A stretch of 64,000 nt of DNA, from contig JALWDS010000018.1 in NCBI GenBank assembly GCA_027036775.1, positions 1-64,000 of the forward strand, read 5' to 3'. The position numbers and the translations under genes were made by a program. Position 1 is the stretch's first letter; each line of letters starts with the position of its first letter. Shown here in pieces: positions 6,147 through 9,173 of the stretch. The stretch is from Archaeoglobaceae archaeon. GTDB lineage: Archaea > Halobacteriota > Archaeoglobi > Archaeoglobales > Archaeoglobaceae. The notes beneath the pieces were generated by a model. The model saw nothing but the letters and a program-made list of their open reading frames with translations. It was not told the origin of the DNA and made no database searches.

Positions 6147-6219
6147 AGCCCCGTAGGGTAGCGGTCAATCCTGCCGGCCTTTGGAGCCGGCGACCGGGGT
6201 TCGAATCCCCGCGGGGCTA
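6147..6219 (+). tRNA. tRNA-Gln (UUG)
   Basis: AGCCCCG/CGGGGCT acceptor stem, CCGGC-CTTTGGA-GCCGG anticodon arm, GGTTCGAATCC T-loop. Confidence 0.92.
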
Positions 6220-6226
6220 TTCTCGA

Positions 6227-6273
6227 ATGATGAAGGGCTAACGCTCTGATTCGTGATGAAAATACCGAACTGA
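6227..6273 (+). ncRNA. C/D-box guide sRNA candidate downstream of tRNA-Gln
   Basis: C box ATGATGA (6227-6233), 12-nt guide, D' CTGA (6246-6249), C' GTGATGA (6253-6259), 10-nt guide, D CTGA (6270-6273). Confidence 0.78.
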
Positions 6274-7501: not shown

Positions 7502-8593
7502 ATGTTATATTTGATCCGCTATTCTGAGGTCTTTCTAAAGTCCGAACACGTCAGGAGGCGCTGGGTAAACAAGTTGGTTGAGAACATCAAGAAGGTTATA
7601 GGTGGAGGAAGGTTCAGGTTGGAGAGGGGAAGGATTTGGCTTGTTACTGATGAGAGGGTGGACGAAAAACTGAGAAAGGTTTTCGGAATATCCTCCTTTT
7701 CTCCCTGCATTCACTGCAAGCTTGACGAGTTGGAGAGTTGCGTTCTCGAGTTCTGCGAGGGAAGGTTGGATGATGTTAAGACTTTTGCGGTTAGGGTTAA
7801 GAGGGTTGGAGAGCACGAGTTCACATCCTTGGATGTTGAGAGGAGTTTGGGTTCTTTGATACTTCAAAGGTTCCCCCACCTCAAGGTGAACTTGGAAAAG
7901 CCCGAAAAGACGATCTACGTTGAGATAAGAAACGAGGATTGCTACGTGTTCGACGAGGTGATAAAGGGAGCTGGAGGAATTCCCGTGGGAGTTGAAGGGA
8001 AGGTCGTGTCTCTCATTTCTGGGGGAATAGACTCACCAGTTGCTACTTGGCTCATGATGAAGAGGGGTTGCGAAGTGATACCTTTACACATGGACGTAAG
8101 ACCCTTCACGAGCGAAAGGGCTGTTGAAAAGGTCGAGAAGATAACGGGGGTTTTGAAGGAATACAATCCAGACTTGGAGCTGATTGTGAGAGAGCACGGC
8201 AGATTTCTGAGGGACGTCAAGGAGTTGCTGAAATCGAAGAGACTCGAAAGTTACACCTGCGTGATATGCAAGAGGAGGATGCTCAGGGTTGCAGAGGAGG
8301 TTGCGAGAGATTTCAAAGCCAAAGGTGTGGTTACCGGTGATTCTCTCGGACAGGTTGCAAGCCAGACTTTGGACAACCTCTACGTCGTAAGTCAGGCTTG
8401 TAGCATACCTATATACAGACCTCTGATAGGTTTCGACAAGGTTGAGGTCGAAAACATCGCGAGGGAGATAGGGACTTACGAGTATTCGATAATACCAGCG
8501 GAATGCAAAGCTGTGCCTAAGAGACCTACAACGAAGGCAAACCTCAAAAGGGTTCTCGAGATAGAGGATGAGCTGAGGAGAAAAGGTTATTAA
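7502..8593 (+). CDS. thiI: tRNA 4-thiouridine sulfurtransferase
   Basis: THUMP region plus SGGIDSPVATWLMMKRGCEV PP-loop. Confidence 0.94.
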   Translation: MLYLIRYSEVFLKSEHVRRRWVNKLVENIKKVIGGGRFRLERGRIWLVTDERVDEKLRKVFGISSFSPCIHCKLDELESCVLEFCEGRLDDVKTFAVRVKRVGEHEFTSLDVERSLGSLILQRFPHLKVNLEKPEKTIYVEIRNEDCYVFDEVIKGAGGIPVGVEGKVVSLISGGIDSPVATWLMMKRGCEVIPLHMDVRPFTSERAVEKVEKITGVLKEYNPDLELIVREHGRFLRDVKELLKSKRLESYTCVICKRRMLRVAEEVARDFKAKGVVTGDSLGQVASQTLDNLYVVSQACSIPIYRPLIGFDKVEVENIAREIGTYEYSIIPAECKAVPKRPTTKANLKRVLEIEDELRRKGY

Positions 8594-8609: not shown

Positions 8610-8674
8610 AATTGAATGATGAATCAGGCAGGAACTGAGTGAAGATGATGAAGGCTGTACTCCCTGAAACAATT
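8610..8674 (+). ncRNA. C/D-box guide sRNA candidate (thiI-nob1 intergenic)
   Basis: C ATGATGA (8616-8622), 12-nt guide, D' CTGA (8635-8638), C' ATGATGA (8645-8651), 12-nt guide, D CTGA (8664-8667); terminal stem AATTG/CAATT. Confidence 0.88.
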
Positions 8675-8702: not shown

Positions 8703-9173
8703 ATGACGGTCCACGTCATAGACACGGGCACCATATTCATGAGGAAGGCCTACTACGAAAACATGATCACGATTCCCGAGGTAGTTGATGAGATAAAGGA
8801 TGAGAACTCTCAGTTCTACTTCTCCCTTCTGAATCTGAGGGTTGAGGAGGCGAGTGAGAGGAACGTTAGGAGGGTTTTAAAGTTTGCAAAAAGAACTGGT
8901 GATATATACAAACTCTCAGATACGGACGTGAAGTTGATAGCCAAGGCTTTGGACTTGAAGGAGAAAGGTGAAGATGTCGTTCTCGTTACGGACGATTACT
9001 CCATTCAAAACGTTGCGATGTCTTTGGGAATAAAGGTTGACAACATAGTCCAACCCAAGATATCGAAACGCTTTAGGTGGGTTAAGGTTTGTAGGGGATG
9101 CGGTAGGGTTGTCGAAGGTGACGTGTGTCCCGTATGCGGTAGCGAGGTTATCGTTAAGAGGGTGAGAGGATGA
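8703..9173 (+). CDS. nob1: rRNA-maturation endonuclease Nob1 (PIN domain plus zinc ribbon)
   Basis: VIDTGTIF, DVKLIAKAL, VTDDYSIQNVA; C-terminal CRGCG...CPVCG. Confidence 0.9.
   Translation: MTVHVIDTGTIFMRKAYYENMITIPEVVDEIKDENSQFYFSLLNLRVEEASERNVRRVLKFAKRTGDIYKLSDTDVKLIAKALDLKEKGEDVVLVTDDYSIQNVAMSLGIKVDNIVQPKISKRFRWVKVCRGCGRVVEGDVCPVCGSEVIVKRVRG

Follow-up and report, generated by a model that had tools for sequence, protein, structure and literature searches.

Dual-guide C/D box RNAs whose two target sites are distant in the sequence of ribosomal RNA (rRNA) and adjacent in its structure are an established archaeal class, which includes sR15 and sR17 of N. equitans (PMC4644070), and some archaeal dual guides have already been suggested to act as bridges (PMC4644070; PMC7994747). 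Helix 27 (h27) of 16S rRNA is a known hotspot of methylation-guide targets in archaea (PMC4644070). In the cryo-EM structure of the yeast 90S particle, U3 snoRNA lies on two segments of the 18S rRNA, nucleotides 9–16 and nucleotides 1111–1123, the latter in the 5' arm of h27, and this pairing has been argued to unite the 5' end and the central region of 18S for formation of the pseudoknot (PMC5354517). Boxes A and A' of U3 occupy helices H1 and H27, and pairing of H2 and H27 is blocked until Dhr1 removes U3 (PMC9196750). Reviews describe U3-like RNAs as absent or unknown in archaea, where an RNA with the role of U3 is still awaited, and a claim made for Sulfolobus was judged to be an error (PMC3879963; PMC8339473; PMC3608112).

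Here we describe a locus of an archaeon of the Archaeoglobaceae that bears on both of these systems. It lies on contig 18 of a source genome of 1.53 Mb in 48 contigs, in a window that comprises the whole 64,000-nucleotide stretch of DNA that was analysed. Its sequence and the conservation from which we infer its function support the assignment of window positions 8616–8667 to a gene for a C/D box guide small RNA (sRNA), and its two guides are predicted to pair with h27 and with the 5' end of 16S rRNA.

Anatomy of the sRNA gene

The sRNA body, from C box to D box, measures 52 nt (8616–8667, forward strand), as defined from the sequence and from 25 homologues in the class. A thiI-like gene precedes it (7502–8593, forward strand; an ORF of 363 aa) and a nob1-like gene follows (8703–9173, forward strand; an ORF of 156 aa, with homologues in 54 of the 59 genomes of the class). 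Both gene names are presumed, following a preliminary description of this DNA. The C, D', C' and D boxes of an archaeal C/D box guide sRNA are present in their order, all on the forward strand: C box ATGATGA (8616–8622), D' guide ATCAGGCAGGAA (8623–8634), D' box CTGA (8635–8638), D'–C' spacer GTGAAG of 6 nt (8639–8644), C' box ATGATGA (8645–8651), D guide AGGCTGTACTCC (8652–8663) and D box CTGA (8664–8667). The guides are within the approximately 10–13 nt of such RNAs and their complementarity spans the +5 position, with Watson–Crick pairs at D+5 and D'+5 in all members examined.

The preliminary description had read this series of boxes between thiI and nob1, with two guides of exactly 12 nt, and the sequence agrees with it position by position. 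Its identification of a C/D box guide sRNA is supported by the box anatomy, by conservation in six genera and by sub-threshold matches to C/D families of Rfam. It had also proposed a 5-bp terminal stem, the halves of which, AATTG (8610–8614) and CAATT (8670–8674), can be read directly on the forward strand of the window copy but are not kept in relatives. Boxes that failed to be conserved in relatives were to speak against the sRNA; C, D' and D are invariant in all 25 members apart from R in the C box, which reads RTGATGA, and a guide length of 12 nt is kept across the family. The C' box is ATGAAGA or ATGAGGA in one genus (g11; genera are numbered here g1 to g13) and shows no other variation, and the spacer between D' and C' has 8–9 nt in other genera, mostly GC....GCG.

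A TATA-like element, TTATTA (8587–8592, forward strand), starts 29 nt before the C box and overlaps the stop codon of thiI. Among the members, 21 of 25 have a T/A-rich, TATA-like hexamer starting 27–31 nt before the C box, and A+T content across members peaks at –30 to –20 upstream of this box. A scan of the sRNA locus for bacterial promoters and terminators found nothing, and in secondary-structure prediction the lone sRNA strand folded no better than its shuffles.

At curated cut-offs, Rfam recognizes only two tRNAs in the window. Below the cut-offs, the top matches at the coordinates of the sRNA are snoPyro_CD (RF00095; 34.7 bits, E = 1.4e-5) and sR2 (RF01139; 31.6 bits, E = 3.1e-5). The Rfam C/D scan that had been suggested as a check thus returns C/D families, but the window copy passes none of their cut-offs. 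Among the members scanned, the A. fulgidus copy alone exceeds the gathering score of sR2 (47.7 bits against 42) and can therefore be annotated as a C/D RNA, which the window copy cannot.

Distribution in the Archaeoglobi

The search for relatives covered the class Archaeoglobi as a group. A generic C/D pattern occurs at 24 places in the whole source genome versus none with the reversed control. The full two-guide pattern matched only in three congeneric genomes, while the D guide with its boxes matched in 20 Archaeoglobaceae genomes, and a sequence model made from those 20 copies added five more of genus g11, giving a total of 25 members in six genera. All 25 were matched within the class at E ≤ 1e-14, the next matches standing at 5e-7 and weaker; the window copy, itself part of the model, scores 58.7 bits (E = 4.6e-16). 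Members are found in all genomes of g1, g6, g7, g10 and g11 and in seven of the eight genomes of g2, whose remaining assembly is 54% complete. The named genera among the matches are Archaeoglobus, Ferroglobus and Geoglobus. At the sensitivity used, no family member was detected in 33 other Archaeoglobi genomes (g3, g4, g5, g8, g9, g12, g13 and two further families), which indicates that the sRNA is not universally needed.

A pattern scan of all genomes returned the Archaeoglobi matches and about twenty scattered others. Three archaeal matches outside the Archaeoglobi were rejected as members since they have no flanking C/D boxes, and a match outside the class in genome G096, which is without upstream C/D' boxes, was taken as chance. 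Matches to the D' pattern outside the Archaeoglobi were likewise set aside: those inspected have no second box pair, and their conserved triplets look coding.

In the genus of the window, the sRNA gene is downstream of thiI and upstream of nob1 in three of three genomes, and in the congeneric A. profundus extra sequence separates it from nob1. Elsewhere in the family the gene occupies other loci, away from thiI and nob1. Its occurrence at different loci argues that selection acts on the RNA itself and not on the thiI–nob1 spacer.

The sRNA gene has further C/D sRNAs for neighbours in genus g11. A second C/D sRNA gene faces it from the opposite strand with almost no gap between them (L163–L165, L167 and L169, near position 1500), and in two genomes of this genus (G035 and G038) a run of further C/D sRNAs lies about 1.2 kb away.

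Predicted targets of the two guides

The D guide of the window forms ten Watson–Crick pairs and one G:U pair with 16S 863–874 (GGAGUACGGCCG), in the 5' arm of h27. We take this segment to be E. coli 887–898, and its U867 to be U891 in E. coli numbering. It is the top site of the guide in rRNA, at –21.0 kcal/mol versus –16.9 for the next, and is likewise the best rRNA site for the guide family, with 7 of 5,000 column permutations scoring as well. The 16S rRNA reads GGGGAGUACGG in g1, g2, g6 and g11 and GGGAAGUACGG in g7 (Geoglobus). The guide correspondingly reads ACTC in g1, g2 and g11 and ACTT in g7, with a G:U pair at that position in g6. It thus tracks the G/A change in the 16S rRNA of Geoglobus and pairing is kept, a covariation that amounts to one compensating change, not many. 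An h27 target with D+5 at E. coli U891 had already been put forward for this guide, and it holds, being the best site in rRNA and one whose change the guide follows. The D guide is accordingly a predicted director of 2'-O-methylation at U867.

The D' guide, left unassigned in the preliminary description, reads ATYTGGCAGGAT with variants across the family, and the best site of the family in 16S and 23S rRNA is 16S 11–22 (AUCCUGCCAGAG). We take this segment (E. coli 16–27) to contribute to two helices, as the 5' strand of helix 2, which is the central pseudoknot, and as the 3' strand of helix 1, and its U15 to be E. coli U20. Of the 12 distinct D' guides, 11 have this as their top site, and for that of g6 it comes second, at –13.4 to –17.4 kcal/mol; the runner-up varies from genus to genus. 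Its score is reached in 68 of 5,000 column permutations when any rRNA site is considered, and in 26 of 20,000 for the pseudoknot/h27 region. Positions D'+4 to D'+7, which include the predicted methylation site, are paired in 25 of 25 members. The D' guides of g7 and g10 make 10 to 11 consecutive pairs, one of them G:U; the rest have a single internal mismatch, located at D'+3 (most of g2, and g6), D'+8 (A. fulgidus) or D'+9 (g1 and g11).

For the window copy taken singly, the D' match comprises seven consecutive pairs and two beyond the mismatch, which is below the nine-pair rule of PMC4644070. Two sites in 23S rRNA (125 and 1942) come within 1 kcal/mol of 16S 11–22 for this copy, so the D' assignment is drawn from the family. 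From the complementarity of the family, the D' guide is predicted to direct methylation of U15, less surely than the D guide is predicted to direct that of U867. Considered as alternative targets, 16S 1054, 16S 1, 23S 125 and 23S 1942 proved weaker and inconsistent across genera. A separate sRNA of g11 (L194, L196) has a guide, CACTGGGCAGGA, that matches 23S 1942–1953 (GUCCUGCCCAGU), a weak competitor site for the D' guide.

Other C/D sRNAs and their targets

A second sRNA family, present in several of the same genomes, is predicted to be directed at h27 and, clearly in g11 only, also at the 16S 5' end. In a census of the source genome, the D' guide of the sRNA at G000:C38:66280-66327 (–) (L055/L212) forms ten Watson–Crick pairs with 16S 875–884, which lies in h27 (loop and 3' arm), and homologues exist in g1, g6 and g11. 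The D guide of this family in g11, ACTCTGGCAGT, makes nine consecutive Watson–Crick pairs with 16S 14–22, and 4 of 150 shuffles of it yield runs of at least nine pairs. Pairing of the D guide with the 16S 5' end amounts to seven pairs in the source genome and is weaker in A. profundus and g6. A third sRNA with a predicted target in h27, G000:C4:127866-127914 (–) (L041), has a D' guide, ATGTGGCCGTAA, that matches 16S 866–877. Because the targets of the second and third sRNAs were sought after the first pair had been seen, they lend support to a coupling of the two places and are not proof of it.

The window contains a second C/D sRNA candidate at 6227–6273 on the forward strand, with the structure ATGATGA-AGGGCTAACGCT-CTGA-TTC-GTGATGA-AAATACCGAA-CTGA. 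It starts 7 nt after tRNA-Gln(TTG) (6147–6219), and the two likely form a tRNA–sRNA dicistron of the kind reported in other archaea. The D' guide of this candidate best fits 23S 373–384, with one mismatch, and the census of the source genome gave no clear rRNA target for its D guide. Genome-wide there are about 20 further C/D sRNA candidates, many with strong predicted targets in 23S or 16S rRNA; the D guide of one, CAAGCCGCCAAT, forms 12 of 12 pairs with 23S 2050–2061.

Proposed mechanism and alternatives

We consider it probable that this RNA is a dual-guide C/D sRNA acting on h27 (U867) and on the 16S 5' end (U15) within one ribonucleoprotein (sRNP) that holds both strands and keeps helices 1, 2 and 27 open. 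The 16S 5' end and h27 are neighbours at the central pseudoknot of the known ribosome structure. Because 850 nt of sequence separate the two targets while this pseudoknot brings them side by side, a single sRNP would keep the two strands together, and pairing at both segments must exclude helices 1, 2 and 27 in the meantime. By complementarity the two sites conform to dual-guide bridging, remote from each other along the rRNA and near each other in its fold, with a D' match in the window copy that is weaker than the nine-pair rule.

If expressed, the sRNA would assemble with L7Ae, Nop5 and fibrillarin; the C/D RNP of these lineages has already been rebuilt in vitro. On the 5' arm of h27 the D guide would direct 2'-O-methylation of U867 (E. 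coli U891), and on the 16S 5' end the D' guide would direct methylation of U15 (E. coli U20). By binding the two segments simultaneously, a single sRNP would hold them close, and helices 1, 2 and 27 would stay open until it leaves, which would constitute a chaperone effect; after methylation, both 16S segments would be released.

An absence of any RNA gene, the boxes having come together by chance or serving the thiI–nob1 spacer as a regulatory element, would suit the location in a short spacer but is highly improbable given 25 homologues at unrelated loci with conserved boxes and guides, no match in the control and a TATA-like element at a fixed distance. We also think it unlikely that only the D guide works, methylating U867, while D' is an orphan or has another RNA target and owes its resemblance to the 16S 5' end in part to coincidence. 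Such a reading draws on the D' mismatches, which vary among genera, on a permutation value for any rRNA site of only 68/5,000, on 23S 125 and 1942, which in the window copy trail by no more than 1 kcal/mol, and on the roughly one third of archaeal sRNAs that have no rRNA targets (PMC4644070). It is countered by the rank of 16S 11–22, which comes first for all but one of the 12 distinct D' guides while the runner-up shifts by genus, by the separate sRNA that matches 23S 1942 in g11, and by the position of the D' site, which lies beside the D target once the subunit has folded.

Somewhat unlikely, in our estimate, is independent methylation by both guides without any part in bridging or folding, the two sites lying close together by coincidence. 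Every member has the D+5/D'+5 geometry of ordinary guides, and many dual guides just modify two sites, as this explanation would have it. In several of the same genomes, however, the second family likewise has an h27 guide and, in g11, another for the 16S 5' end; moreover, helices 1, 2 and 27 cannot form while such pairing lasts. Bridging of both strands by one sRNP is the reading we prefer.

Comparison with known systems

The type of RNA is already known; the novelty appears to lie in the combination of targets and in its correspondence to U3. No paper reporting this pair or its U3 match was found in the literature consulted, which does not prove that none exists. With the archaeal dual guides of PMC4644070, the sRNA shares the C/D/C'/D' anatomy, guides of about 12 nt, the +5 rule and two targets that are distant in sequence and close in structure. 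It differs from them in its pair of sites, as none of the pairs in Table 3 of that paper joins the 16S 5' end with h27, the best cases being on helices 28 and 30. Even as a mere methylation guide, it would represent a conserved family whose target pair is outside the distant-site pairs published in that table (PMC4644070). The window copy and the other scanned members, A. fulgidus apart, differ from sR2 and snoPyro_CD in falling below both cut-offs. The match to sR2 is carried by the boxes and some letters of the guides; the consensus guides of sR2 differ, with 4 nt inserted in the D guide.

The sRNA resembles U3 in being a C/D-class RNA, and the two 18S segments bound by U3 are the counterparts of both of its targets. 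Judged by complementarity alone, it pairs with the 5' end of the small-subunit rRNA and with the 5' arm of h27 as U3 does. Hinge pairing of 5' and 3' elements with the 5' ETS, the combination of C'/D with B/C motifs and the long 3' domain of U3 have no equivalent in the sRNA, which at about 52 nt has no sequence beyond two guides and four boxes. In contrast to U3, it pairs through its methylation guides and has the two elements in reversed order. A release helicase, Dhr1, is known for U3, whereas none is established for the sRNA. A search for the Brix/Imp4 family gave no match, and gave none for the control either. With neither hinges nor a B/C motif, with guide geometry and with the opposite order of elements, the sRNA is not a homologue of U3.

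By analogy, the sRNA may do what boxes A and A' do within U3. A wider proposal, which we offer tentatively and with more doubt than confidence, is that guide sRNAs of the Archaeoglobaceae are a functional counterpart of U3: one sRNA, aided in some genera by a second, would hold the 16S 5' end and h27 together and open, time the formation of the central pseudoknot and 2'-O-methylate both sites. If true, archaea would possess a U3-like activity that works in trans, and it would be convergent or else hint at an origin of U3 from a dual-guide C/D RNA. The sRNA has both of the pairings that would define the role of U3, and the vague question of such a role in archaea is thereby brought to named nucleotides, 16S U15 and U867, and to an RNA of about 55 nt.
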